A stretch of 62,763 nt of DNA from positions 1 to 62,763 of the forward strand of contig JAFXDE010000050.1 in the NCBI GenBank assembly GCA_017516315.1, written 5' to 3'. The number at the start of each line of letters is the position of its first letter. Position 1 is the first letter of the stretch. The stretch comes from Clostridia bacterium. GTDB lineage: Bacteria; Bacillota; Clostridia; Oscillospirales; Acutalibacteraceae. Below the pieces are notes generated by a model. It did not search any database, was not told the DNA's origin, and worked only from the letters and a program-made list of their open reading frames with translations. The translations under genes were made by a program, and so were the position numbers. Shown piece after piece: positions 5,203 to 38,277 of the stretch.

Positions 5203-6940
5203 TGTAATTCCCAAGCCTAATAACATCACATTCAAAAAGGGTGACTGCTTCATCTATAAAGACAGAGTTCTTTTACATATCGACCCTGAGCTTGCCGACA
5301 TCGAAAAATTCGTCAGCAAATGTCTCGGCGTAAAAACAGAAAAAGCAGATGACGAAAGCCATATCGAGTTTATCTTCGACGATACTCTTCCCGAGGAAGT
5401 CTATACTCTCAGGGCTGAAGGCTACGAAGCTAAAATTTTCGCAGGCTCCTACAGCGGTGCCTTTTACGGTCTTATGACTCTGTCTCAGCTTCTTCTTTCC
5501 GATAGGGATGACAGCGAAACTCTCACCTGTCCTCAGCTTATCATCGAAAAGGATTCTCCCAAATACAGCTGGAGAGGCTTACAGCTCGACGAAAGCCGTC
5601 ACTTCTTCGGCAAGGAAACGGTCAAAAAATATCTTGACTTTATGGCTATGTATAAGCTCAACCGCTTCCATTGGCATCTTACCGACGACCAGGGCTGGAG
5701 AATCGAAATAGAGAAGTACCCCCTTCTCACCGAAATCGGCTCCTACAGAAAGGGCAGCCAGCTTCACGCATGGAATTGTCCCGAATACGAGGAAATCCCT
5801 CATTTCGGTTATTATACCAAGGATGACATAAGAGAAATCATCGCTTATGCCAAGGAAAGATGTATCGAAATCATCCCCGAAATCGACTTCCCCGCACACT
5901 GTGCTTCTGCCATAGCCGCATATAATGACCTTGCCTGCCGTAACATTCCCTGTGAGGTTTTCGATTTCTGCGGCGATGTTCTGGCTAAGGAAAAGGGACT
6001 CAAAAACTGGAACAGACCTCTTTGTCTCGGCAAGGACAAAACTCTCGATTTCGTTAAGGATGTCGTGGATGAGGTCGCTGACCTTTTCCCCTTCCCCTAT
6101 TTCCATATCGGCGGCGACGAGGCACCCACCAATGAATGGAAGAAGTGCCCTGACTGTCAGAAGCGTATCAAAGACAACAAGCTGAAAAATGAAGTAAATC
6201 TTCAGGCCTGGTTTACAAACGAAATCAATGCCTTCCTTAAAAGCAAGGGTAAGACCATGATAGGCTGGAACGAGGTTTTAGCTTCAAAGAGTACGGACAC
6301 AGATGTCATAGGTCAGTACTGGGTTAGCCAGAATGATAAAAATGTACTGAGACATCTCAAAAACGGCGGTAAGATTATCCTTTCCAAGCATAAGAGCTTC
6401 TACTTCGATATGGCTTATGACTACTGCACTCCCAAGGAGACCTACACCTACGAGCCCGAAAAGTCAAAAATCAAAAAAGAGCTCAAAAAGGGTGTTCTCG
6501 GTGTCGAAGGAGAGATGTGGACAGAATGGATTACTAACGAAGACCATGTTTTCTTTATGCTCTTTAACCGAGGTCTTGCCCTTAGTGAAAACGCCTGGAC
6601 AAACAGAAAGGATTTCAAGGATTTCAAAAGCCGTCTTCAGTCTCATAAGGCATTTATGGACAAGATGGGAATTTACTACGGTAATGACCACATAACCATG
6701 AAGAAAAATAAAGGCCTCAAAAAGAGACAGGCTAAAAAATACGGCTTCACCGTCAAGCACAACGATGCCGAATTCAGACTCGACGGAATCCATAACAAAA
6801 ATATGAGAGTCAAGGCAAAGCAGGCTCTGAAAGAAAAGAAAAAAAGAGAAGAATACGAAAAGAACGCCAAGGGCATCGACGAGCTTATCGATTCAGCACT
6901 TCTTAAAGCAGCAGGATACATTTTAGAAGAAGATGCGTAA
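5195..6940 (+). CDS. Beta-N-acetylhexosaminidase, GH20 family (second copy)
   Basis: A 581-residue GH20 enzyme that is clearly paralogous to its upstream neighbour. Shared landmarks are HWHLTDDQGWRIE, EIDFPAHC and the catalytic HIGGDEAP followed by a CPDCQKR pair. It has a longer, Lys-rich C-terminal tail of about 60 residues with predicted helix. No signal peptide is present. The start overlaps the preceding gene by 8 bases and the end overlaps the MATE gene by 8 bases, so all are co-translated. The two copies may differ in linkage preference (for example GlcNAc versus GalNAc, or chain position); the sequence alone does not show this. Confidence 0.93.
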   Translation: MINVIPKPNNITFKKGDCFIYKDRVLLHIDPELADIEKFVSKCLGVKTEKADDESHIEFIFDDTLPEEVYTLRAEGYEAKIFAGSYSGAFYGLMTLSQLLLSDRDDSETLTCPQLIIEKDSPKYSWRGLQLDESRHFFGKETVKKYLDFMAMYKLNRFHWHLTDDQGWRIEIEKYPLLTEIGSYRKGSQLHAWNCPEYEEIPHFGYYTKDDIREIIAYAKERCIEIIPEIDFPAHCASAIAAYNDLACRNIPCEVFDFCGDVLAKEKGLKNWNRPLCLGKDKTLDFVKDVVDEVADLFPFPYFHIGGDEAPTNEWKKCPDCQKRIKDNKLKNEVNLQAWFTNEINAFLKSKGKTMIGWNEVLASKSTDTDVIGQYWVSQNDKNVLRHLKNGGKIILSKHKSFYFDMAYDYCTPKETYTYEPEKSKIKKELKKGVLGVEGEMWTEWITNEDHVFFMLFNRGLALSENAWTNRKDFKDFKSRLQSHKAFMDKMGIYYGNDHITMKKNKGLKKRQAKKYGFTVKHNDAEFRLDGIHNKNMRVKAKQALKEKKKREEYEKNAKGIDELIDSALLKAAGYILEEDA

Positions 6941-8285
6941 GCTTAATTTCAGAATGCTTCCCCTTGTTTTCGCCCTTGCCTGGCCTACAATGCTCGAACA
7001 GCTTATGCAGACCGCAGTACAGTACATTGACACCGCCATGGTCGGCTCTCTCGGCACTGATGCTACGGCTGCTGTAGGCTCTACCACCACGGTGAACTGG
7101 CTGGTAGGCTCCTCTGTCTCTGCTTTAGGCGTAGGCTTTCTCGCCTTTATTTCCCAATCTCTCGGAGCAGGAAAAAGAGAGCTCGCCGTGCGTGCCTCGA
7201 GCCAGTCTATTTCGGCTGTACTCCTGTCGGGACTCTTCTTCACGGCAGTAACCTTAGCCGCAAGTCCCGCTGTCCCCTCTCTTATGCAGGTAGACGAAAG
7301 CATCCGTAAGCTCGCATCGGAATATTTCTTCATTCTCTATACCCCGATGCTTTTCCGCACTGCCACCATTATTTTCGGCGCGGTTCTCCGTGCTGCAGGC
7401 GATTCGAAAACACCGATGCTTGTAGGCTTTGCAGTAAACATTATCAATGTGGTGCTTAATTTTCTGCTTATTTATCCTACGAGAACGGTTAATCTTTTCG
7501 GAAGGGAAACAGTTCTTTACGGTGCGGATATGGGCGTAATCGGTGCCGCCACCGCCAGCTCTGTCGCTTTTACGGCAGGCGGCATACTTATCACCGCGGC
7601 TCTTTTAAGGCATAAAACCATAGCGCCTGAAAAGACCTTTCTCCGACCCGACAGAGAAATTCTCACTCCCTGTCTGAAAGTAGCTCTTCCGAATATGCTT
7701 CAACGCTTCGGAACCTCCTTCGGCTATGTGGTTTTCGCTTCGATGATAAATTCTCTCGGTGAAATTTCTACGGCAGCTCACACGGTAGCAAATACCGTCG
7801 AATCTGCCTTCTACATTCCCGGTTACGGAATGCAGGCGGCGGCAGCGACTCTTATGGGTAATGCCCACGGTGCAGGTGACAGGGAAAAGGCAAAGGAGCT
7901 CAGCAGACTTCTTATCTTTATAGAGGTAACTCTGATGATTCTTTCCGGCGGATTACTCTTTATCTTCGCCGAAAGGATGGCAGGACTTTTTTCCGACAGT
8001 GCCGAGGTAATTTCACTTTGCTCCGCAGTGCTTCGTATGGTCGCTCTCTCCGAGCCCTTCTACGGTGTCTCTCTTATTATAGAAGGTATGCTTCAGGGCA
8101 TCGGTAACACGAAAACACCCTTTATATTCAATATCGCCGGCATGTGGGGAATCAGAATAGCAGGAACCTTTATCTGTATAACGCTCCTTTCTATGGGACT
8201 TATCAGCGCATGGGCGTGTATGATAGGACATAACCTTATGCTGTTCACAGCATTTGCTTTATATTACAAAAAGAAATACCGATAA
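6933..8285 (+). CDS. MATE family multidrug/metabolite efflux transporter
   Basis: A 450-residue MATE (MatE) antiporter with about 12 membrane segments in two homologous halves. The N-terminus (LALAWPTMLEQLMQT...AMVGSLGTDATAAVG) and the start of the second half (VALPNMLQRFGTSFGYVVFASM) are family hallmarks. Such proteins export cationic drugs or metabolites using Na+ or H+ gradients. The start overlaps the second GH20 gene by 8 bases and a strong hairpin terminator follows. Why a MATE pump sits in a hexosaminidase operon is unclear; it could export a product or simply be co-transcribed. Confidence 0.92.
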   Translation: MRKLNFRMLPLVFALAWPTMLEQLMQTAVQYIDTAMVGSLGTDATAAVGSTTTVNWLVGSSVSALGVGFLAFISQSLGAGKRELAVRASSQSISAVLLSGLFFTAVTLAASPAVPSLMQVDESIRKLASEYFFILYTPMLFRTATIIFGAVLRAAGDSKTPMLVGFAVNIINVVLNFLLIYPTRTVNLFGRETVLYGADMGVIGAATASSVAFTAGGILITAALLRHKTIAPEKTFLRPDREILTPCLKVALPNMLQRFGTSFGYVVFASMINSLGEISTAAHTVANTVESAFYIPGYGMQAAAATLMGNAHGAGDREKAKELSRLLIFIEVTLMILSGGLLFIFAERMAGLFSDSAEVISLCSAVLRMVALSEPFYGVSLIIEGMLQGIGNTKTPFIFNIAGMWGIRIAGTFICITLLSMGLISAWACMIGHNLMLFTAFALYYKKKYR

Positions 8286-11119: not shown

Positions 11120-13744
11120 TTACACCTCCTGTGAGCTTTCCGAAGAATATTCCTTAAGTCTCTGAAGCTTTATTTTATTTCTGACGATAACGCTTACGGG
11201 AATAAGCATCAGGCAGAATAAAATAACGAGCACGAAGGAATAGTCCGGTTTTTCTTTATAAATAATCGTAGGCATATAATCCTCATCGTCAGCGTAATTT
11301 ACCGTAGCTCTCTCTCTGAAGAAAAGGCGGTAAAGCCACTCTGTAGTCTCGTCAACACTCATTGCATTGATATCATTGATAACCGACTGCATAAAAGCCT
11401 CTGCCAAATCCTCGCTTCCTTCGGGAAGAGAAGCACCCCCCGCAGAGCCAAGGCCCGTATCCATAAGAGAGGATATAAGCTCACTGTTAGCGGGACTTTT
11501 TACAGTTTCAGCCATAACACGGAGAATACTTACACACAGAGCAGGCATATCGGACTGAATATATGTTACTGTGGCGAACTGACCGCCGACCGTTCTTTTA
11601 CTGGTCTTTTCCACCGATGTTCCGAGAGAGGCCAGATAAGCAAGATCAAGCTCGGGAAGAGTTATATCCAAATCAGCCGAAGCCATAAGCCCGTTCATAA
11701 CAGCACCTACATCAATTTCTCCCATCTCTGAAATATCTATAGCATTTTCCATACCGAGCTGTGATAAAAGAGAGGTAAAGGGATAAACAAGGTTTTTGAT
11801 ACAGATATCGAAGCCTCCGCTTTCAGCGAAATAGAGAAGATTCGGTAAAATCTGTAAAAGAGTGTAGGCAGGCTTATCCGTGAAGCGGTCAAGTAGAGAA
11901 AGTATCGGGTCAAGCAAAGCCTCGACTCCCTTTCCCCGGCTGTAAAGTGCCTTGAATTCCTCGTAGGTTCTTACGGTGGAATCCTCACAGCCCAGTGCTT
12001 CATAAATCGGAATAATCGCTGTGTTATATCCGTTGGAGCCGTAAAAATCCACGGCATCAAAAAGAACTATCTTGTCCTCGGCTAAAAGCATACCGAGTAT
12101 ATCCTCGAAGGGAGACATCACAGATGCCACGAGAGAAATAAACTGTCTCTCGTTACCGCTTTTAATACCAAGGTCTACACCCTTTTCTCCCACAGCACTC
12201 CATTTGTTATAAGCAGAAAGATTATCCGCCGCCTCGCTGAAGCCCTTACTGCGAAGAACTGCCGCTATACCCTTCGGTGAAGCGTCGAGTCCCAAAAGAG
12301 CAGTGACCGAGGAAAGCTCCTCGCTTTCAAAAGCACCAAAAAGATTTTTCATAAGAAGCGAAAGAGTTTTAGAAGAATAGATTTCCTTTTCAAGCAAAGC
12401 TCCGAGAGATTTTGCTTCACCTGTTTCGGCTACTATCTGGTCTAAAAGCTCATCTACTCCGTCGGCTACTCTCTGATATTTTTCAGCACCGAGATTAGGT
12501 GTATAAACTGCCTGGCCGGGAGTAAATTCCGGGAATGCCCACTGATTGTCGTTGATTACGGCTCCCGTCTGATTAAGAAGAGAAACCAGAAGAGAGATAA
12601 GAGAATCCGTCTCTTTTCCGAGAATACCCGAAAGCACCTGTCGGGTCTGTGCATCGAGCTCAGGAATAAGCTCCGAGGAAGAGGACTGATTCATTTTCAG
12701 AGTTTCGATTAACCACCGTAAAAGCACGATAAAGGTATCTGCCTTATCGGCGGTGATGCTTCCGTCCTCGTTTACCGTACCGAGAGATGCCAGAAGCTGT
12801 AAATCTACGGGAGCCATCGGCATACCGGTCTGAGAAAGCATATCGTTGATGTTAAGGGTGAAGCTCTGTGTAAAGCTTTCCGTATCGTTAAGGAAGGAGG
12901 TAAAGGATTCTATGGGAATAAGGGTAGCTATGTTAAGCACCTGCAGACGAAGAGGACTCATAAGAGTAGCTACCGCACTGTCAAATCCGCCGTTCAGGAA
13001 ATAATGTGCTATGGACGGAAGAGCTGATGTGAGTCTGTCAAAGGGTGCGTCAAGAATCCTTTCCATATAGGATACAAGGTCATAGGCTATGTTATATATC
13101 ATAGCTCCCTTATCCTCTTTTGCCTGAGCATAAAAGCTCTCCGGAGAAAGATATTCTCTGAAGCCTATAGCCTCAAAGGTGGGAATGACAGCGGTTTCAT
13201 AGCCGTTGGAGCCTTTGATACCGACTAAAACAACCGGAGAATATGACCCCGAGCATAAAAGAGCGTACATAAGGTCATTAAAGGGAGAAAACATAGATGC
13301 CACAGCTACGGAAAATTCGCTTTTATTGCTTACTCCCCACTTCGCTCCCGTAAGCTCAACCTCTGCCCAGGAGGAATAACCCGAAAGCTTTTCGGCTACA
13401 GAAGGGTACCTGGACAGCTCTTTGGCAAGACCGGATACGGAGGTCTCCACTCCCGCCGCAGAAAGAGAGCTTCCGCCCTCACTTTCCAGAGCTCTGTAAA
13501 TTTCTGTAAGTATCGCAGATAATGTGCTGTCGGAATAGACCTCCTTAAGAACAGCTTCCTTAAGAGAGGTATTCTGACTTTTCATAAAGCCGCCGATTAC
13601 CTTGTCGGCCTTCGTAATGGTCTGATATGCCTGTTCCTTTGAGACATTTCCGGGATAGTCAATGGCTAAACAGGGAAGAACGGAAAAGCTTATCAAAACG
13701 ACCGTCAGAAGCAATGAAAAAATGCCTCTGAATGCTTTATTCAT
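11120..13744 (-). CDS. Large membrane-anchored ectodomain protein with internal duplication, unknown function
   Basis: A protein of about 874 residues that I do not recognise. It has an N-terminal signal peptide (FSLLLTVVLISFSVLPCLA), a mostly helical ectodomain, and one C-terminal membrane helix (SFVLVILFCLMLIPVSVIV) with a short basic tail. The ectodomain is an internal duplication: the units near residues 25-290 and 430-690 share matched landmarks such as ASMFSPFNDLMYALL / ASVMSPFEDILGMLL and GSNGYETAVIPTFEAIG / GSNGYNTAIIPIYEALG. ATG 13744 is used here; an in-frame GTG at 13759 overlaps the marR stop but is too close to the AGGAG site. It sits between marR and a MacB-like ABC gene, which suggests it is the ABC transporter's extracellular partner. 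Confidence 0.82.
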   Translation of the reverse strand: MNKAFRGIFSLLLTVVLISFSVLPCLAIDYPGNVSKEQAYQTITKADKVIGGFMKSQNTSLKEAVLKEVYSDSTLSAILTEIYRALESEGGSSLSAAGVETSVSGLAKELSRYPSVAEKLSGYSSWAEVELTGAKWGVSNKSEFSVAVASMFSPFNDLMYALLCSGSYSPVVLVGIKGSNGYETAVIPTFEAIGFREYLSPESFYAQAKEDKGAMIYNIAYDLVSYMERILDAPFDRLTSALPSIAHYFLNGGFDSAVATLMSPLRLQVLNIATLIPIESFTSFLNDTESFTQSFTLNINDMLSQTGMPMAPVDLQLLASLGTVNEDGSITADKADTFIVLLRWLIETLKMNQSSSSELIPELDAQTRQVLSGILGKETDSLISLLVSLLNQTGAVINDNQWAFPEFTPGQAVYTPNLGAEKYQRVADGVDELLDQIVAETGEAKSLGALLEKEIYSSKTLSLLMKNLFGAFESEELSSVTALLGLDASPKGIAAVLRSKGFSEAADNLSAYNKWSAVGEKGVDLGIKSGNERQFISLVASVMSPFEDILGMLLAEDKIVLFDAVDFYGSNGYNTAIIPIYEALGCEDSTVRTYEEFKALYSRGKGVEALLDPILSLLDRFTDKPAYTLLQILPNLLYFAESGGFDICIKNLVYPFTSLLSQLGMENAIDISEMGEIDVGAVMNGLMASADLDITLPELDLAYLASLGTSVEKTSKRTVGGQFATVTYIQSDMPALCVSILRVMAETVKSPANSELISSLMDTGLGSAGGASLPEGSEDLAEAFMQSVINDINAMSVDETTEWLYRLFFRERATVNYADDEDYMPTIIYKEKPDYSFVLVILFCLMLIPVSVIVRNKIKLQRLKEYSSESSQEV

Positions 13745-13751
13745 TTTCAAA

Positions 13752-14189
13752 TCACTCACCTCTCCTTTCTTCCTTTTCCATAATTACAAAAAGCTTTTTC
13801 ATCAGTCTGAGAAACTCCTCAGAATCCTTTTCACCTAATTTATCTATAATTTCCAAAGAATTTCTCACAGCGGCTGTTTTAAGCTGTCCGCTGTATTCAG
13901 CGCCCTTTTCGGTAATTTCTATAATCGAGCATCTTTTATCGAGTTCATCCTGCTGTCTTACGATATATCCCTTATTCTCGAGAGATTTTATAATAGCCGA
14001 TAGTCTCGCGGGGGTAAAATCCGTATATTCGGAAAGCTTTGACGGAGAGCTGATGCCGCCGATTTCATTCAGCATAGCTAAAAGCCTGTCTTCGCCCTTA
14101 AGCAGGAAATTGCGCTTCGAAAGAATACTGTGCTTATCCATACGGTCGAGTATTTCCAGTATTTCCCTGGCAAGTATTGCCGTGCTCAT
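13752..14189 (-). CDS. MarR family transcriptional regulator (controls the ectodomain/ABC operon)
   Basis: A 145-residue winged-helix MarR protein: recognition region ISSPSKLSEYTDFTPARLSAIIKSLENKGYI and wing LDKRCSIIEITEKG. It is the first gene of a three-gene minus-strand operon. Two palindromic sites with related sequence (14211-14231 and 14366-14384) lie upstream; the nearer one follows the -10 box directly, so the protein probably represses itself and the two genes behind it. The ligand is not predictable. Confidence 0.9.
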   Translation of the reverse strand: MSTAILAREILEILDRMDKHSILSKRNFLLKGEDRLLAMLNEIGGISSPSKLSEYTDFTPARLSAIIKSLENKGYIVRQQDELDKRCSIIEITEKGAEYSGQLKTAAVRNSLEIIDKLGEKDSEEFLRLMKKLFVIMEKEERRGE

Positions 14190-24736: not shown

Positions 24737-24792
24737 GAGGGTACCTTTAACGCCTACACTCCATAAGGCGAAAGAGGTACCCTCTTTTTTTT
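24737..24792 (+). terminator. Terminator of the isc operon
   Basis: Outer stem GAGGGTACCT/AGGTACCCTC (24737-24746 and 24775-24784), inner stem CGCC/GGCG, followed by a T run of eight. Confidence 0.88.
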
Positions 24793-24862: not shown

Positions 24863-24891
24863 TTGACAAATATCTTATAAATTGTTATTAT
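24863..24891 (+). promoter_or_regulatory. Promoter of the large secreted protein gene
   Basis: -35 TTGACA (24863-24868), 17-base spacer, -10 TATTAT (24886-24891). It leaves a leader of about 50 bases. Confidence 0.65.
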
Positions 24892-24948
24892 TATATGGGG
24901 AATTTTCTGCAAAGAAGCCTTAATTTTTTTTAAAAAGGAATGATTAAA

Positions 24949-27900
24949 ATGAAGAAAAGCATTTTTAAAAGGCTGAGTATATTTTTAGCCTGTGTGCTGA
25001 TGCTTACAGCAGCATTAACCATGGCCTTTTCGGTTCAGGCGAAAGCCTCCGTCGTAAAGGTAGCTACAGCTGCTCAGCTGGAAAATGCACTTAAAAGCTC
25101 GGCAAAATCTATCTGTATTACTGCCGACTTCGAGCTTGACAGAACATTTTATGTTTACGGCAAAACTACGATTTATGCCGACAGCAAGCATACTCTTAAG
25201 AGAAGCATAAGCTTCGGCGGCGACATTTTTGTCGTAGGAGAGAACGCAAAGGGAAAAAGCTCTCTGCTCGGAAAAGGAAACGCTGAGCTTACCTTAGGTA
25301 AATCCGATGCCAAAAATGAAAATGTACTTATTTTCGACGGTAATAAAGCAAATATGAAAACGCAGGTAAAGGGCTCATTCCTTTTCATTGCAAACAGCTC
25401 TGTGGTAAATGTTTATAAGGATATCAGCTTCATAAACGCAAAAAAAGAAGGAAACAGCAAAACCTTCAATGCAGATTATGCCTTATCTTATCCCGGACGC
25501 ATCGGCGGTGCTGTTTCAGTTATCGCAAGCGGTACTATGAATATTTACGGCGGTAATTTCACCGGTAATACCGTAAAGGATGAAGCCAAGGTGGAAAACC
25601 CCACCGAAGAACAGCTCGTAAGCACGATGGGCGGTGCTATCTATAACTTCGGTAATCTTAAAATCTACGGCGGTAACTTTTCGGATAATCGTGCCGGACG
25701 AGGCGGTGTTATCTATAATTACCGCACCTTAAAAATCACGGCAGGCACCTTCAGCTCAAACCGTGCAACCACTCACGGCGGTGTAGTATGCCAGCCTGCT
25801 TCACAGTATGCACGCATTTATCTGGGCAAGGACGGTTCAAAGGAAGGCAATAAAATCACCTTCAAAAATAACTCAGCCACAGAAAATGCAGGTGCAATTT
25901 ACACAAGACCTCAATCGTCGCTCATTATTTACGGTGACACTACCTTCGATTCGAACAAGGCCTCAGGCGGTAACGGCGGCGCTATCTGCTCCTACGGTGT
26001 AGTAAAGCTTTATAACACCGTTTTCAAAAACAACTCTGCAGTAACACGAGGCGGCGCTATTTACCTTTCGAACTCCAGCGAAGAGCTTACAACCCGTCTT
26101 TCATCGATCGATAACTGTACCTTCACATCCAACTCCGCAAAAAACGGCGGCGCTCTTTCCGCTTATGCCTCTGACGAAACCTTGGATGAAGGTGCAATCG
26201 TAACCGTAAACAGCTGTAAATTCAAAGCAAATACTGCCACGGAAAACGGCGGTGCTGCCTATGCGGGAAGAAAAAGTAAGGTAACATTGAAAAACTCTTC
26301 TCTCGAAGAAAACAGTGCCTCTGAGGGCGGTGCTTTCTACATTGTAGGTGAAAGCAAGATTAACATCGAAAATACCGATTTCATTTCAAACAAGGCCTGT
26401 ACTTCCTCCGACAGCAGCGGCGGTGCCATTACCGTAAGAAGCTCTGAGCTTAACATTAAAAAATCGGAGTTCAGTAAAAATCTTGCATCAAAGAACGGCG
26501 GCGCTCTTTACATTTCTTATGTGGGAGACAGCAAAAAGGATGCAGAAGTCAAAATCACCTCAACCCTTTTCGAGGAAAATACCGCAAATAACTACGGCGG
26601 TGCCGTTTACGCTACGAAGCATACCGACTCCGAAAAGAATCAGCTTGACGGTGACGGCTGTAAATTCGTAAAGAACGGAGCTGTCAAAGGCGGCGCTCTT
26701 TATCTCACTTCCGGCACAAGCTCATACTTTGAGGATTGCGATTTCGAATATAACACCAACTCAACCGTAAGCGGCGGTAAGGCTGATGCCTATAACGGCG
26801 GTGCTGTTTATCTTTCGGAAAGCACACTTGAAATCAACGGGGCAACCTTCAAGGGCAACAGCGCTGAATATAACGGCGGTGCCTTCGGTGTTTATTCTGA
26901 CAGTAAGGCTATCCTTAACAAGATAACAGCTACAGAAAATTCTGCCGTTCATGCAGGCGGCTTCCTTTACAACAGCGGCTCTGATGTAAAAATCTATAAC
27001 AGCAAGCTTACAAAGAACTCCTCTGAGGAAACAGGCGGTGCGCTTTCTCTTCACTCACTCGGAACTACGAGCGTTTATAAAACTGCCTTCGAAGAAAACT
27101 CTGCAGGAACTCACGGCGGCGGCGCTTATGTTTACACCGAGGAGTCTGCTACTCTTTTCCAGGACTGTACCTTTACTAAAAACAAGGCAGTAAAATACGG
27201 CGGTGCCTTATATGCTTCAAAGGCAAGTATTCTGAATCTTTACAGCCTTACCGCCACAGATAACAGTGCAGGCAGCGGCGGCTTCCTTTATGAAACCACT
27301 ACAGCTACCACCGTTACTCTTAACGGCGTAACCGTAAAGGGAAACACCGCATCCTCAGGTCCCATCATTTACGGTAACACTAATAAGGCTATACTGAATC
27401 TTAACAAGACTAACTATAAGGACAGCGACCTTACCTCAGCTCCCGACTCGGCTTACTGGAAAAAAGCTGTCGCAAATAAGCTGACGGTAAATGAAATTAC
27501 CGACCCTATCCCCTCTTATACAAATTACAAGGAAAATAAAGCCGACAAAAAGACCGAGTCTGCTAAAAAGAAGGCCGTTCCCGTAACGGATGTGTTTAAC
27601 CTCGGCAAAAGCTCGAGCGATGCAGATATAAACGAAGATTATGCAAAGCTTAAAAAGCTCGACAACAGCTCTAACTTTATGAGCCGTAACACAACCACCT
27701 TCAATAATATCAACGGAAAAGATGTTAATGTTGATACCTTTGTGTACATCGCCGGTCATAAGGGCAACAACGTAAGCGTCGGTGAAGGACTTCTCATTTA
27801 TCAGGCTCTTCTTTATAAAAAAGCTCACCCGAAAGAGGAAGTAAGCATCGACATTTCTTCCTTCCGTTTTTCAATAGAAGCAGCGGTAAACATAAACAGA

Positions 27901-30900
27901 AACAGCCGTTACTTCGGTTATATGCGTAACCTTGTAGGTATGGAGTACGATAAATACGGCTTCGTAAGAATCTCCTATCTTCTCGTTACAGCCGCAAAAA
28001 TGGGTATAAATGTTACTGTAATAGGTCAGATGGACGGATATCCCATTTCCTCCTCCGACCCTAATCTCAAAGAATATTTTACTCAGAAGCTGAACGATCC
28101 CTGTGACCCCGCTTATGTAAAAAACGGAGTTATAGGTGATTATCTCAACTTCAACTACTGCTACTGGACCGCTTATGACGATAATGCCGCTACAGATATG
28201 ATGCACACAAAGCTCTGCGCTGTTTCCCATTATCTTGATATGAACGGTGTCTCACATAAAAATGCAGTATGGTCATCAAGCTCCAACATTGACGGTATCA
28301 AGGACTCGGGTGCTAACGGAAACAGCAAAATGCAGACAGCCACCCTCGTTTCAGACCACGAAAAAATTTACCGTGCATCATCTAACTATCTGAGACTTAT
28401 TTCAAAGTATTGTGCCCAGGAAGATGTTCTTTTTTTCCGTGACCTTGTAAACGAAAGAACCACTGAGCAGATTCAGCTTATTCTCGCAGGTAAGGAAAGC
28501 AAGATTCCGAAAAACGAGCAGATTGTTTACCTCGGCGGTGAAAATGACAAGGTCTTTGAGCTGTACTTTGCTCCCTTCGGCGGTGACGCTGCCGTATGGG
28601 ATGAGGTAAATAACCCCTACTGCAAATATATGAGAAAAATGTATAATTCCGATGACTACATTATTTTAACCTGGAATAATGCAAACTATCTTAACACCTT
28701 CCCTCTCGGCAAGCAGATGGAAAGCGTGTATATTTCAGCCTTTAAGCAGAACACGAACCCCCGTAACAAAATTTACCTTAACCTTGAAAGCTTCCCCGAC
28801 AATTCCTTTGACAGTCTTGTCACCGGTAAAACTGTAGGCTTCAAATCTGTAAACCAGAAGGATTTCGGTGCTATCCACAGCAAGGATATACAGATTTCCT
28901 ATTCGGAAAACGGACAGAGACATTATGTTTCCATCCTTAATTCACTGAATATCCACGGCGGCTCAATGAGCTATCAGTCAAACAATCTTCTTGTCATCAA
29001 GGAAGATAATATGGACAAGGGCAGTGTATTCCATACTATTGCCGACCTTACGACAAAGGGCATTACCGAAAACGAGCTCACCGAAGCAGGCGACCTCGGA
29101 AGACAGTTCAGCAAAAGCGAGAAATTCTCCGTAGGCAAGCTTTCCGCTGTTCCCTATACACTCGAGGCTACCGTTCAGGTACCCGAAAGCGTAACGGGTG
29201 CTGCAGGAGTAATTATCGGCAACTATAACGGCTCTAAAAATAAGCAGCTCAACCTCGAAATAGCCTCAGGCGGCAGAGTTAAGCTCTTCTATAATAACGG
29301 CAAAAATAAGGTTTCCTGCATCTTCAAAAAGGATATACGCTCAGATTCAGCCGTACACATTGCCGTTACCGTAAGCGATAATAAGGCCACCCTTTATGTA
29401 AACGGCAGCGCCGTCGAAACAAAAACCCTCAAATATGCCTACAGCACCTCGAAAACAAAGTATGTTATCGGCGGTGACAACAGAAAGAATAACACCAAAT
29501 ACTTCAAGGGTACGATCTATTCAGTAAGCCTCTTTAACGATGTCAGAACAAAAAGTGAAATAAAGCGTGACTCAAGAGGCGTTTCTGCCACCGCAGCAGG
29601 TCTTATCTATACTAAAGAATTTCTGACGGCAGACCGCACATATTCCGCCGTTAACCTTAACGGAAGAACCTTCTCCAAATCAAAGGCTTATTCTCTCGGT
29701 AAGCTCTCTGCTACACCCTACACTATCGAATCCACAATCTCTGTTCCCAAAAAGCTCAGCGGACGCGGCGGCGTAATCGTAGGTAACTATAACGGTAAAA
29801 ACGGCAAGCAGCTTAACCTGGAGCTTTATACCGAGGGCAGAATAAGACTGTTCTTCAATAACGGCAAGAAAAAGGTTTCCTGCATTTTCAAAAAGGACCT
29901 TCGTACAGGTGCCCCCGTTGATATCGCCGTAACCGTAGACAAGAAAACAGCTACCCTTTATGTAAACGGCAAGGCAGTAGAAACCAAAAAGCTTTCAGCT
30001 ACCTATTCGGGAATCAAGGGCAGCTTCAAAATCGGCGGTGACAACAGAAAGGGCAACCCCGAATATTTCAAGGGTACTATCTATTCTGTCCGTCTCTTCT
30101 CCGATGTCAGAACAAAAGCTGAAATCAAAAAAGACTATGTATATATCGAAGGAACGGAAAAGGGTCTTATCAGCTCGAGATACTTTGCTTCTCAAAGCTC
30201 TGTTTACCCGAGCAAAAAGCTTAACGGCATCGAATTTACCGAAGCTACTCCTTTCACATTAGGAAAGCTTAAAGCCTCTCCGAAAACTATCGAAGCAGTA
30301 ATCAGCCTTCCGAAAAAGTTTACCTCCCGTGCCGGTGTAATCGTCGGCAACTACAGCTTCGACGGCAAACAGCTTAATCTCGAAATAGCAGCCGGCGGCA
30401 AAGTAAAGCTTTACTATAATAACGGCTCGAAATATTCCTCTGTTACCTTCTCGAAGGATGTTCGCTCATCAAGACCTGTCCATATCGCTGTTACCTTAGA
30501 CGGTAAAAAAGCCACACTTTATGTTGACGGTAAAAAGACACAGACTCTTTCGATCGGTATAAAATACAGCGGTGCTACCGGAAGCTTCAGAATCGGCGGA
30601 GATAACAGACCCGGAAATACCAAATACTTCAAAGGAAAGATTTATTCCGTAAATCTCTTCTCCTCAGTCCGCAGCGAAAAGCAAATCAAGCGTGACATTA
30701 CCGCTGTAAAGAAAGGCGCGTCCTCACTTATTTGGTCCGGCAATCTTATTACAGCAAAGCCCGTATATGATTCAGGCAGCTTAGGGGGAGCGAAATTTGA
30801 GGCAGACAAATACACCACGCTCAATCCTCTCAACGATACGCCCAAAACAATAGAGGCACTCATAAATGTTTCTCAGAAAACTACGGGCAAAGCAGGCGTA

Positions 30901-31323
30901 ATCCTCGGTAACTGCTACGGTGCTGAAAGCAAGCAGATGAATCTCGAGGTAATAGACGACGGAAAGATAAAGCTTTTATACCGTAACGGCTCTAAAGAGG
31001 ATTACTGTGTATTCTCGAGAGACATCCGTTCTTCGACTCCCGTTCATATTGCCGTTACCGTAAACGGACGAACAGCTACACTTTATGTTAACGGTGAAAA
31101 GGCTGACAACAGAACGCTCAAGGCTTCCTACAGCGGAATTACCGACGGCTTTAAAATAGGCTCAGATAACAGAGCTGACGGTGCAGGTTATTTCAAGGGT
31201 ACTGTCTACAGCGTAAGCCTCTTCTCCGATGTGAGAACACAAAAGGAGATAAAGACTGACAGCATAAATGTAAATGCAAACGAGCCTGCACTTCTGTATT
31301 CGGGCCGTTATCTCAGTAAATAA
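24949..31323 (+). CDS. Giant secreted protein: beta-helix repeats, phospholipase-D-like domain, four LamG-like domains
   Basis: A 2124-residue protein with a Sec signal peptide (LSIFLACVLMLTAALTMAF). Residues about 30-870 are a right-handed beta-helix built of many units with GG-A-(I/V/L)-Y and N-x-A motifs, like chlamydial Pmp or adhesin repeats. Residues about 890-1350 resemble a phospholipase-D-superfamily domain: H1086-x-K followed by SSSSN near 1113, and H1310-x-K followed by S-x-N1334 and QSNN near 1346. The usual Asp of the HKD motif is not obvious in either half. From about 1381 to the end come four LamG/concanavalin-like repeats of about 188 residues. No LPXTG, SLH or membrane anchor is visible at the C-terminus. 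ATG 24949 is 8 bases after AAGGA; ATG 24940 is too close. A surface or secreted enzyme acting on host or dietary polymers or lipids is inference. Confidence 0.85.
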   Translation: MKKSIFKRLSIFLACVLMLTAALTMAFSVQAKASVVKVATAAQLENALKSSAKSICITADFELDRTFYVYGKTTIYADSKHTLKRSISFGGDIFVVGENAKGKSSLLGKGNAELTLGKSDAKNENVLIFDGNKANMKTQVKGSFLFIANSSVVNVYKDISFINAKKEGNSKTFNADYALSYPGRIGGAVSVIASGTMNIYGGNFTGNTVKDEAKVENPTEEQLVSTMGGAIYNFGNLKIYGGNFSDNRAGRGGVIYNYRTLKITAGTFSSNRATTHGGVVCQPASQYARIYLGKDGSKEGNKITFKNNSATENAGAIYTRPQSSLIIYGDTTFDSNKASGGNGGAICSYGVVKLYNTVFKNNSAVTRGGAIYLSNSSEELTTRLSSIDNCTFTSNSAKNGGALSAYASDETLDEGAIVTVNSCKFKANTATENGGAAYAGRKSKVTLKNSSLEENSASEGGAFYIVGESKINIENTDFISNKACTSSDSSGGAITVRSSELNIKKSEFSKNLASKNGGALYISYVGDSKKDAEVKITSTLFEENTANNYGGAVYATKHTDSEKNQLDGDGCKFVKNGAVKGGALYLTSGTSSYFEDCDFEYNTNSTVSGGKADAYNGGAVYLSESTLEINGATFKGNSAEYNGGAFGVYSDSKAILNKITATENSAVHAGGFLYNSGSDVKIYNSKLTKNSSEETGGALSLHSLGTTSVYKTAFEENSAGTHGGGAYVYTEESATLFQDCTFTKNKAVKYGGALYASKASILNLYSLTATDNSAGSGGFLYETTTATTVTLNGVTVKGNTASSGPIIYGNTNKAILNLNKTNYKDSDLTSAPDSAYWKKAVANKLTVNEITDPIPSYTNYKENKADKKTESAKKKAVPVTDVFNLGKSSSDADINEDYAKLKKLDNSSNFMSRNTTTFNNINGKDVNVDTFVYIAGHKGNNVSVGEGLLIYQALLYKKAHPKEEVSIDISSFRFSIEAAVNINRNSRYFGYMRNLVGMEYDKYGFVRISYLLVTAAKMGINVTVIGQMDGYPISSSDPNLKEYFTQKLNDPCDPAYVKNGVIGDYLNFNYCYWTAYDDNAATDMMHTKLCAVSHYLDMNGVSHKNAVWSSSSNIDGIKDSGANGNSKMQTATLVSDHEKIYRASSNYLRLISKYCAQEDVLFFRDLVNERTTEQIQLILAGKESKIPKNEQIVYLGGENDKVFELYFAPFGGDAAVWDEVNNPYCKYMRKMYNSDDYIILTWNNANYLNTFPLGKQMESVYISAFKQNTNPRNKIYLNLESFPDNSFDSLVTGKTVGFKSVNQKDFGAIHSKDIQISYSENGQRHYVSILNSLNIHGGSMSYQSNNLLVIKEDNMDKGSVFHTIADLTTKGITENELTEAGDLGRQFSKSEKFSVGKLSAVPYTLEATVQVPESVTGAAGVIIGNYNGSKNKQLNLEIASGGRVKLFYNNGKNKVSCIFKKDIRSDSAVHIAVTVSDNKATLYVNGSAVETKTLKYAYSTSKTKYVIGGDNRKNNTKYFKGTIYSVSLFNDVRTKSEIKRDSRGVSATAAGLIYTKEFLTADRTYSAVNLNGRTFSKSKAYSLGKLSATPYTIESTISVPKKLSGRGGVIVGNYNGKNGKQLNLELYTEGRIRLFFNNGKKKVSCIFKKDLRTGAPVDIAVTVDKKTATLYVNGKAVETKKLSATYSGIKGSFKIGGDNRKGNPEYFKGTIYSVRLFSDVRTKAEIKKDYVYIEGTEKGLISSRYFASQSSVYPSKKLNGIEFTEATPFTLGKLKASPKTIEAVISLPKKFTSRAGVIVGNYSFDGKQLNLEIAAGGKVKLYYNNGSKYSSVTFSKDVRSSRPVHIAVTLDGKKATLYVDGKKTQTLSIGIKYSGATGSFRIGGDNRPGNTKYFKGKIYSVNLFSSVRSEKQIKRDITAVKKGASSLIWSGNLITAKPVYDSGSLGGAKFEADKYTTLNPLNDTPKTIEALINVSQKTTGKAGVILGNCYGAESKQMNLEVIDDGKIKLLYRNGSKEDYCVFSRDIRSSTPVHIAVTVNGRTATLYVNGEKADNRTLKASYSGITDGFKIGSDNRADGAGYFKGTVYSVSLFSDVRTQKEIKTDSINVNANEPALLYSGRYLSK
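29089..31310 (+). repeat. Four tandem LamG-like coding repeats
   Basis: Coding repeats of about 560-570 bases begin near 29089, 29650, 30220 and 30780. Each encodes LGKL-type entry, VI(V/L)GN(Y/C), a K(Q)LNLE strand, AVTV-x-ATLYV(N/D)G, GGDNR/GSDNR and YFKGT(I/V)YSV-LFS-VR. Repeats 1 and 2 are most alike and repeat 4 is most diverged, which points to stepwise duplication. Confidence 0.8.
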
Positions 31324-31412: not shown

Positions 31413-32459
31413 TTAAACTCTCTCTATTACTCCCGGTGCATCCACGGAAAGTCTGTACTTTTTGTCGTAATCCATACCGGCACATAATAAAACTTCCTTT
31501 TTACTGCAGTTATAAACAGCGCTCCAGAGAGTAATAACCTGATGCTTGAGGCGCTTATGCTGATAATTGAGCACGACATTTGAAAGAAGATGCATAGCCT
31601 CATCCTCTGTGATTATACCGTCTGCTTCAGCGAGAGTTGCCTTGATTTTTTCATATCTGTCCATACCTCTGCCGTCGTGATTATCACCGCCGGGAGTGAG
31701 GAAATAGTTCGTCAGTGCCAGACACTCCTCTTTCTTTTCCTGCCTGATTACGTGCATTTTATTATCCACATATTCGATAATGGCGCTGTTACCCTCGGCA
31801 TCAGCGAGCTGATAATGATAGTTGATAAAAATGGAGTCGTGCATATCGTAGGATGCAAAAAGCTCTATAGCCTCGTCTACGGTAGCGCATTTATCCAGCA
31901 CGGCGCGAAGAGCGACTGTAGTAATAATCGGTTTTTTACCTGTATTCTGCTTCGTAGCCTTGGTTTTGATTTCCAGAATACCGCAGGCAAAGCCCTTTTC
32001 ATTGATACCGTCCATGGAGGTGTAGGGTGAGCCCATAACTCGCAGCGGTCTTTTCGCATTTTTAAGCGGCATATATTTAGTGCCGTGAATAAAGAAGGTA
32101 GTGTCAACCACTGCTACGCTTCTGTAGCCCTTTTCGGGATTAGTCCAGAGTACAAGACAGGGAGCAGCCTTATAGTCGAAATTTCTGCCCAGAATATAGC
32201 CGCCGTCGGGTGTCCTGGCGTTAAAGGTACTGCAGGCAAAGCCGCTGTGGTCGGGATTGACAGAAAGAGGAGGCATATTAACCTCGTTCTGAAGGAACCT
32301 TACCGCATCCATAATGTTACTGCAGCCCTTTTCCAAAAGAGCGTCGAGACCATAAGAGCTTTTATAAACGAGAGTCCAGATATTGTCGTCTATCTGCTTA
32401 AGAGTGGAGAGTGTTTCTTCGATTTTCTGTACTGCAAGAGCATCTTTTTTATCTTTCAT
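31413..32459 (-). CDS. Choloylglycine hydrolase / penicillin V acylase family Ntn-hydrolase
   Basis: A 348-residue linear-amide C-N hydrolase of the CBAH (PF02275-like) family. The likely nucleophile is the Cys in GFACSTFNARTPDGGYILGR, at about residue 76, followed by the family's GRNFDY. Other conserved features are MGSPYTSMDGINEKGFA and the ALTNYFLTPGG region. The Cys is not at the N-terminus, so the protein would need to cut off a propeptide of about 75 residues, as some relatives do. There is no signal peptide. Substrates could be conjugated bile acids, N-acyl amino acids or penicillin V; the sequence does not decide. ATG 32459 is used; a GTG at 32468 is the alternative. Confidence 0.82.
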   Translation of the reverse strand: MKDKKDALAVQKIEETLSTLKQIDDNIWTLVYKSSYGLDALLEKGCSNIMDAVRFLQNEVNMPPLSVNPDHSGFACSTFNARTPDGGYILGRNFDYKAAPCLVLWTNPEKGYRSVAVVDTTFFIHGTKYMPLKNAKRPLRVMGSPYTSMDGINEKGFACGILEIKTKATKQNTGKKPIITTVALRAVLDKCATVDEAIELFASYDMHDSIFINYHYQLADAEGNSAIIEYVDNKMHVIRQEKKEECLALTNYFLTPGGDNHDGRGMDRYEKIKATLAEADGIITEDEAMHLLSNVVLNYQHKRLKHQVITLWSAVYNCSKKEVLLCAGMDYDKKYRLSVDAPGVIERV

Positions 32460-32492
32460 TTTTAACACCGCTTTAATAATTTATTTTGTTAA

Positions 32493-36762: not shown

Positions 36763-36791
36763 ATTTTAACACAACAGGAAATTTTTGTCAA
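36763..36791 (-). promoter_or_regulatory. Promoter of the riboswitch-controlled ATPase gene
   Basis: On the minus strand: -35 TTGACA (36786-36791), 17-base spacer, -10 TAAAAT (36763-36768). The -35 box overlaps the stop codon of the upstream gene. Confidence 0.7.
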
Positions 36792-38248
36792 CAGGTGACT
36801 TTATCTTTTTCCTTTAGGTGAAGGCTGCTCTTTTTTCTTCTGTACTCCAGAAAGATATAAAGCAGCACAAAGGTGATAACTGTGGTCACCATAGCTAAAA
36901 GCACATCGTATACTGTGTCGAAAAGGAAATAAAGCTGAGTGTTTCCTACGCCGTGGCCGAACACCTTAAAGAAAAAGCTTTCCTCCGCGGGCCCCCAGTA
37001 AAATCCCTGATTTGATGTACCCCAGATGAAATCTCCGATAAATTCGCTGACCTCCCAGGCAGGCATAATAAAGCAGGAAAAGGCTAAAGCGAAAAGAGAG
37101 ATAAGCAGACTGTCCTTACGGCTTTTATGCTTTACGAGAGTAAGAGCTATGTAATAGCCTGCCAGCACACACAGTACACCGGAAATGAAATGAAGGAAAA
37201 GGTCAAATCTCGGAACTATGTAGTAAATTTCGCAGTAGTTACCGCCGTATGAGCCAAGGAAAACGATTACCGTGATAAGGCTCTGAGTTTTATAGCTTAC
37301 CTTAGAAAGCACCGAATCTCTCGGAAATACGAGATGCACCAAAGTGATGGCAAAGGTGCCGATAAGGTTAGCCAGCATAAGAATAGCCTCCGGGCGGTTA
37401 TCCCACTCGATAAAGGCATAAAACATAGCCGCACGCACAGACCACCAGAAAAGACGGTCGAAAATGCTCGTATCCTCACTTACCTTTTTAATTTCCAGCT
37501 CTATCTTTTCACGAAGGTGGGGAAGAGCATTTCTAAACAGAGCAGACAGCTCTGTTTTTTTATGTACGAAAAACTCCTTACTTTTAAGACGGAATTTAAG
37601 ATAAACCATCGCTGCAGATAAAACTCCGCCCACTATAGAAAAGAAAAAATCCTCATCCGTGTCAAGCAAAGGTCTCTGCTCATAGGGACTCATAGCGAAG
37701 CCGAAGACCTGATAAAGCCAATGATTATCCTCGACGAATTCCACATGGCAAAGATCAGTGCCGAAAAGGAAATCGCTGAAAAACTCCGTAAGCTTACGGA
37801 AAATGGTTACCGTACCCGAAAAGCAGAAGGTAAAAAAGGTAACGAAAAGGCTTTCGTTTTTATTTTTCGGTATTCTTAGTGCCATAGCGATGTAATAGCC
37901 TAAAGCGCCGCTGAAAATACCGCCGACCAGCTGAATAAAAAGGTCATAGTCGGGAAAGGTCTTCAGCACACCGAAGCCCAGACCTGCCACAGTGCTCACC
38001 AGAGCGAGGACACAGATAAAGCTTTGCAGACGGCAGGAAAGATTAAGCCTCGGAAAGGCCGCCTTTAAAGCGTCCGCAATAAAGGTAAGAGCGAAAACTG
38101 CCAGATAAAAGACCGCCTCACTCTTATTCATAAAAGCACAGGAAAGAAGCAGTCCTCTCGTAAGCCACCACAGAGACATTTCAGCAGCAGAGGTCTCTTC
38201 CTTTATTCTGCCGCAGAAAGCTCTGAGACGGCAGGAAAAATTATTCAT
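36788..38248 (-). CDS. Polytopic membrane protein with internal duplication, unknown function
   Basis: A protein of about 486 residues with 11-12 membrane segments. It is an internal duplication: DLFIQLVGGIFSGALGYYIA in the first half matches DLFLHFISGVLCVLAGYYIA in the second, each followed by a Lys/Arg-rich loop, a membrane helix, an acidic E-F-x2-D-F-(L/I)-(F/W)-GT motif and another helix. The halves resemble DUF2238/YjdF-like membrane proteins, but I am not certain of that family. ATG 38248 (5 bases after AAGGTG) is preferred over ATG 38251 and a TTG at 38266. It has its own promoter and no obvious operon partner. Confidence 0.75.
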   Translation of the reverse strand: MNNFSCRLRAFCGRIKEETSAAEMSLWWLTRGLLLSCAFMNKSEAVFYLAVFALTFIADALKAAFPRLNLSCRLQSFICVLALVSTVAGLGFGVLKTFPDYDLFIQLVGGIFSGALGYYIAMALRIPKNKNESLFVTFFTFCFSGTVTIFRKLTEFFSDFLFGTDLCHVEFVEDNHWLYQVFGFAMSPYEQRPLLDTDEDFFFSIVGGVLSAAMVYLKFRLKSKEFFVHKKTELSALFRNALPHLREKIELEIKKVSEDTSIFDRLFWWSVRAAMFYAFIEWDNRPEAILMLANLIGTFAITLVHLVFPRDSVLSKVSYKTQSLITVIVFLGSYGGNYCEIYYIVPRFDLFLHFISGVLCVLAGYYIALTLVKHKSRKDSLLISLFALAFSCFIMPAWEVSEFIGDFIWGTSNQGFYWGPAEESFFFKVFGHGVGNTQLYFLFDTVYDVLLAMVTTVITFVLLYIFLEYRRKKSSLHLKEKDKVTC

Positions 38249-38277
38249 CATATCACCTTCAACCAAATATAAAAGGT

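Follow-up and report, generated by a model that had tools for sequence, protein, structure and literature searches.

Among the closest described relatives of the protein reported here are two-motif enzymes of the PLD superfamily, namely PssA, PLD3/PLD4 and F13. The active site of PLD3 comprises H201, K203 and N218 together with H416, K418 and N432, and Asp208 and Glu423 lie 20 Å off (excerpts of PMC10783504). TDP1, an active enzyme of the HKN class, naturally lacks the Asp of the HKD motif (excerpts of PMC6895789 and PMC11405833). Outside the chlamydial Pmp proteins, Chlam_PMP repeats are borne by a few methanogen adhesin-like proteins (excerpt of PMC11532034). Here we describe a gene that joins Pmp-type repeats, a predicted PLD-fold domain and four LamG-like modules. 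It lies at 24949–31323 on the plus strand of a 62,763-nucleotide stretch (the window) from a Clostridia bacterium (assembly GCA_017516315.1, contig JAFXDE010000050.1), and is a single open reading frame (ORF) of 2124 codons without internal stops, as a first-pass annotation of the window had proposed. We consider it probable that the product is a catalytically competent secreted phosphodiesterase of the PLD superfamily, displayed by its Pmp repeats and docked by its LamG modules.

Predicted fold and active site of the middle domain

Structure prediction and a fold search of the middle domain (residues 884–1372) gave a bilobal PLD fold. PssA was among the best matches, and none of the 50 matches listed belonged to another fold, so that other folds were rejected; TDP1 was not among these 50 either, an absence that carries no weight in a list of this length. 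In the model, the two-lobed fold is common to the window domain, PssA, PLD3/PLD4 and F13, which show 10–14% identity to it in structural alignments. In contrast to these enzymes, the window protein is predicted to be secreted and carries Pmp and LamG modules. The model thus supports the PLD-like assignment of the first-pass annotation and, with it, the overall reading as a secreted Pmp, PLD-like and LamG protein.

We aligned 20 homologues of the domain, the window protein included, with pairwise identity down to 36%. The window protein contains four H-x-K strings, at residues 960, 1086, 1137 and 1310. Both His and Lys are kept in all 20 homologues at 1086 and 1310 only, whereas the Lys is kept in 1/20 at 960 and in 2/20 at 1137, which led us to reject a chance pair. 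The strings at 1086 and 1310 had been taken as the PLD pair, each followed by an Asn, and this assignment stands; N1113 and N1334 are likewise invariant. The invariant residues are H1086, K1088, N1113, D1115 and Q1129 in lobe 1, and H1310, K1312, D1313, N1334, N1345 and E1352 in lobe 2. On the preferred reading, the two lobes would bring H1086/K1088/N1113 and H1310/K1312/N1334 together, and PLD3 has the same paired HxK and paired Asn. A further homologue (L018 in G450, 5998–7434) carries an in-frame TAA inside the PLD domain, is a probable pseudogene or assembly error, and was left out of the alignment.

The HKD Asp (position 8 of HxKx4D) is replaced by Ser in 20/20 homologues at site 1 and by Ser (17/20) or Asn (3/20) at site 2. 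The aspartate noted as missing from the window protein is therefore missing throughout the alignment, in which the family differs from PssA, PLD3/PLD4 and F13. The domain has the arrangement of the HKN class, HxK(n)N twice without the Asp (as defined in an excerpt of PMC6895789). The likeness to TDP1 rests on motifs, and the window protein differs from TDP1 in being a predicted extracellular bacterial multidomain protein.

Among the homologues, the Pfam family PLDc_2 was detected in 3 of 20 (best 5.6e-4), and the PLD score of L084 (19.6 bits) is below the curated cut-off of 27. The match to the cardiolipin-synthase profile had negative controls only behind it; the polyphosphate-kinase profile performed poorly as a control (its first row was the helicase-like L058) and was set aside as a positive control. 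Weak Pfam matches in the middle domain (NANM, DUF5121, ACBP and others) each occurred in one of the 20 members and were rejected, as was fumarate reductase, the sole solved-structure sequence match of the profiles (E 0.33 and 0.73), which we regard as noise. Solved TDP1 chains were not matched in sequence by the middle domain profile. The window's own genome, 82% complete, gave no PLDc_2 match at E 0.1, and no PLD-type cardiolipin synthase was seen there.

Occurrence, the constant Pmp partner and variable modules

The middle domain is rare. It occurs in 5/98 genomes of relatives, 4/34 genomes of the genus, and 8/398, 7/394 and 1/398 genomes of the family, order and phylum samples, which overlap and each include the window's own genome, the single holder in the phylum sample. 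The first count sets aside a match in G051 (E 0.003; six if counted), whose ORF reads by eye as a MurD-like ligase. A search of genome contigs returned 11 named loci; a scan with a single sequence gave no match. Seven of these loci have a source in the title, in every case the hindgut of a ruminant (rectum or cecum of goat, rectum of sheep, cecum of water deer); the titles of the other four (SIG isolates) give no source. Relatives of the domain were absent from the plasmids and viral contigs searched, and a mobile origin was rejected.

The Pmp repeats of the window protein are detected by both Chlam_PMP (Pfam, 2e-27, over cut-off) and POMP_repeat (NCBIfam, 1.6e-21), and residues 181–845 contain 20 GG[AVF]x motifs, where 2000 shuffles had 0.8 on average and never more than 5. 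The window protein shares these GGA(I/L/V)/FxxN repeats with the chlamydial Pmp proteins, from which a beta-helix fold may be assumed by family. The first-pass annotation had put the repeats at about 840 residues; they span about 660, after a non-repeat segment (residues ~36–180) that has, by eye, a comparable counterpart ahead of the Pmp blocks in the fused homologue P0002. Chlamydial Pmp autotransporters end in an outer-membrane beta-barrel, whereas the window protein ends in LamG modules and the Pfam scan found no barrel model in it. The window family also differs from chlamydial Pmp and gut adhesin-like beta-helix proteins in carrying or adjoining an enzyme domain.

A Pmp region accompanies the domain in 20/20 homologues. 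It is fused N-terminally in eight (window protein, L016, L017, L019, L026, L035, L079, L080) and is the next upstream gene on the same strand in twelve (L020–L025, L033, L081–L085). The broken L018 is also Pmp-fused, and G757 has two copies (L081 and L083) as separate split pairs of Pmp and PLD–LamG–metallophosphoesterase genes, each with its own Pmp gene. Pmp in the split members was judged by motif count, with Pfam run on L009 (the same locus as L020) and L085. Across the 11 split pairs computed, the intergenic gap ranges from −4 to +20 bp; in L033 it is 14 bp if the start is ATG 1454.

All four Chlam_PMP matches of the window's own genome lie within the ORF at 24949–31323. Fourteen further genomes with the PLD domain were covered. 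Their listed matches fall in linked ORFs, with the exception of four in G413, which lie on a separate contig; the linked Pmp gene of G413 is truncated by a contig end. The 19-residue model is insensitive at E 0.001, and weaker Pmp genes may escape it. In the family sample, Chlam_PMP matches occur in 16/396 genomes, including all eight PLD genomes. The other eight showed no PLD domain in the stretches taken, of which L088 is cut by its contig end and L092 stops 112 bases short of one. Pmp proteins thus exist without the PLD domain, but no PLD domain was seen that lacked a Pmp partner. Three loci of PLD-less genomes (L089, L090, L093) encode very large Pmp-repeat proteins with LPxTG-like ends by eye, and form a second, probably sortase-anchored class; no such end was found in the 32 PLD-linked ORFs.

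In a tree of the 20 domains, the eight fused members lie on one side of one branch (100/99), and the fused or split state requires one change, compared with 6.5 on average after shuffling. Because the window species has the fused type and the other three members of its genus that have the domain carry the split type, replacement or transfer is suggested.

The modules downstream of the domain vary. Four Laminin_G_3 stretches of the window protein exceed the Pfam cut-off (4.4e-70 for the whole protein), which agrees with the four tandem LamG-like modules proposed; they are 49–64% identical among themselves and are ordinary members of PF13385, whose copy number is 1–6 per protein among the relatives scanned. 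Pfam detects LamG arrays also in L016, L017 (as L007), L019 and L080 and one LamG in L079, and motifs alone point to LamG in L026 and L035. LamG with a metallophosphoesterase is present in 8/12 split members (L020 as L009, L023 as L010, L024 as L011, L021, L022, L081, L082, L083). This metallophosphoesterase, taken from a relative, had no match at 0.01 among solved chains (phmmer) and matches far below cut-off in NCBIfam. L080 closes with a GDSL esterase, and another is encoded by the gene that follows the L033 domain. Pfam found no further domains in L084 and L085, and the domain proteins of L025 and L033 (559–598 aa) leave, from their length, little room for one. L021 (9770–14413, in a metagenome-assembled genome titled Ruminococcus sp.) ends in a Pfam type I dockerin, which suggests that it attaches to a scaffoldin.

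Candidate activities and substrates

By analogy with other PLD enzymes, the domain would catalyze hydrolysis or phosphoryl transfer through a phosphohistidine intermediate. The dedicated Pmp beta-helix fibre would present it, and the LamG array, in a putative lectin role, would dock it on a target that bears glycans. Since relatives pair the domain with a metallophosphoesterase or a GDSL esterase, its most likely substrate would be a phosphodiester that belongs to a surface glycoconjugate, a wall polymer or a phospholipid. The breakdown of lipid or wall polymer is what such partners would suit best, with extracellular nucleic acid as a serious rival. A secreted nuclease that degrades extracellular DNA or RNA like PLD3/PLD4 or Nuc, with the relatives' metallophosphoesterase stripping the released phosphates, is conceivable, but we think it doubtful.

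Several observations weigh against a competent phosphodiesterase with such a substrate. Neither Pfam nor NCBIfam gave a PLD match in the window protein, so that the hidden Markov model search of the whole protein recovered the Pmp and LamG parts of the annotation and not the PLD part, and profile–profile comparison with hhalign was weak (probability 16.9% and 1.2%). The window protein itself lacks the metallophosphoesterase and GDSL modules behind the substrate proposal. Q1129 and N1345 align with positions at which a Glu follows the Asn in many PLDs, and the chemistry, judged from the alignment, could differ; the cardiolipin-synthase template has Glu at the place of N1345 in the later alignment and at that of Q1129 in the earlier one. 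We take TDP1 to have a Gln at the place matching Q1129. The HKD Asp is absent at both sites, and in PLD3 the second-site mutation E423A completely abolishes exonuclease activity and causes retention in the endoplasmic reticulum, which its authors ascribe to a role of Glu423 in stability and folding (excerpts of PMC10783504).

The missing acidic residues, the substituted Glu positions and the binding modules that flank the domain would equally suit a dead PLD fold retained to bind phosphorylated ligands, given that PLD3 is inactivated, through folding, by loss of one such residue (excerpts of PMC10783504). A binder, however, would be expected to lose some of the six active-site residues, all of which are invariant in the 20 homologues, and TDP1 is active likewise without the Asp (excerpt of PMC6895789). 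From the PLD3 mutant and the active TDP1, we take the missing Asp to mean that the family must stabilize its fold in another way, rather than that its site is inactive; a binding role is unlikely. A phosphoryl transferase that passes a phosphatidyl or related group to an alcohol, for instance to tie the Pmp fibre to a surface, draws on the placement of PssA, itself a transferase, among the best fold matches, on the constant coupling of Pmp and PLD, and on the LPxTG-like ends, found in 0/32 PLD-linked ORFs versus, by eye, 3/8 PLD-less Pmp loci. Yet the remaining five PLD-less loci also lack such an end, and anchoring by other means occurs, because lipobox-like signals are present on both genes of the distant locus L085 and, similarly by eye, on the Pmp gene of L084. 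We hold a transferase improbable. There is an equally slim chance of a two-part surface system in which the HKN-type domain covalently ties the Pmp fibre to a phosphodiester-bearing surface by phosphoryl transfer; if true, it would be a sortase-independent route of adhesin display whose heads (lectin, phosphatase or esterase) are interchangeable. A competent phosphodiesterase remains the reading that we prefer.

We found no paper about the combination of Pmp, PLD and LamG in the open-access library searched, as judged by title and the start of the abstract. The PLD fold family is known; judged against the libraries searched, three features look new, namely this branch, the replacement of its Asp and the constant pairing with Pmp. 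The protein adds to the PLD superfamily a branch for which the Pfam and NCBIfam versions searched have no model and whose constant partner is unusual. It raises the question of which phosphodiester a Pmp-borne enzyme would encounter extracellularly in the ruminant gut. Should that substrate be a lipid or wall polymer, Pmp repeats would here be enzyme-targeting fibres, beyond an adhesin role. Since the pairing exists in a two-gene and a fused form, the dependence of the enzyme on the fibre is directly testable.

Gene layout and surroundings

The features of the gene are collected in Table 1. The N-terminus was recognized by eye as Sec-type, in line with the signal proposed earlier. The longest form of the ORF begins at 24940, and a start at ATG 24949 is favored, with AAGGA 9 nt ahead.

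Table 1. Features of the Pmp/PLD-fold/LamG gene in the window.
Feature	Position	Strand	Basis
Promoter-like site TTGACA-17-TATTAT	24863..24891	+	Consensus scan, 11/12, TG ahead of second hexamer
Likely ribosome-binding site AAGGA	24935..24939	+	Sequence ahead of ATG 24949
Whole ORF, predicted secreted Pmp / PLD-fold / LamG x4 protein, 2124 aa	24949..31323	+	ORF and translation
Sec-type signal peptide, residues ~1-32	24949..25044	+	Judged by eye
N-terminal non-repeat segment, residues 36-180	25054..25488	+	Precedes Pmp units
Pmp-type repeats, putative beta-helix, residues ~181-845	25489..27483	+	Chlam_PMP, POMP_repeat, motif count; fold from family
PLD-superfamily two-lobed domain, residues 884-1372	27598..29064	+	Predicted structure model
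Catalytic motif 1, H1086-x-K1088, S1093 at HKD Asp position	28204..28212	+	Invariant 20/20
N1113, Asn of motif 1	28285..28287	+	Invariant 20/20
Catalytic motif 2, H1310-x-K1312	28876..28884	+	Invariant 20/20
N1334, Asn of motif 2	28948..28950	+	Invariant 20/20
LamG-like module 1, residues ~1386-1545	29104..29583	+	Laminin_G_3; bounds chosen by hand
LamG-like module 2	29665..30138	+	Laminin_G_3; bounds chosen by hand
LamG-like module 3	30226..30693	+	Laminin_G_3; bounds chosen by hand
LamG-like module 4	30793..31272	+	Laminin_G_3; bounds chosen by hand

The promoter-like site is the top-scoring of 19 in the scanned stretch (shuffle mean 9.4). A terminator-like hairpin lies upstream of it (24770–24788) and the downstream gene is on the opposite strand, so that an operon with the neighbours was rejected. 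The neighbours, an Rrf2 regulator and a class-V aminotransferase upstream, a CBAH-like hydrolase on the opposite strand and a GH43-like gene downstream, provide no functional hint. Two other window ORFs on the minus strand (11120–13759, 879 aa; 36788–38266, 492 aa) have no Pfam match at 0.001. The neighbouring minus-strand gene (31413–32468) matches AAT (2.6e-21) and CBAH (1.1e-13) and encodes a choloylglycine-hydrolase-like enzyme.

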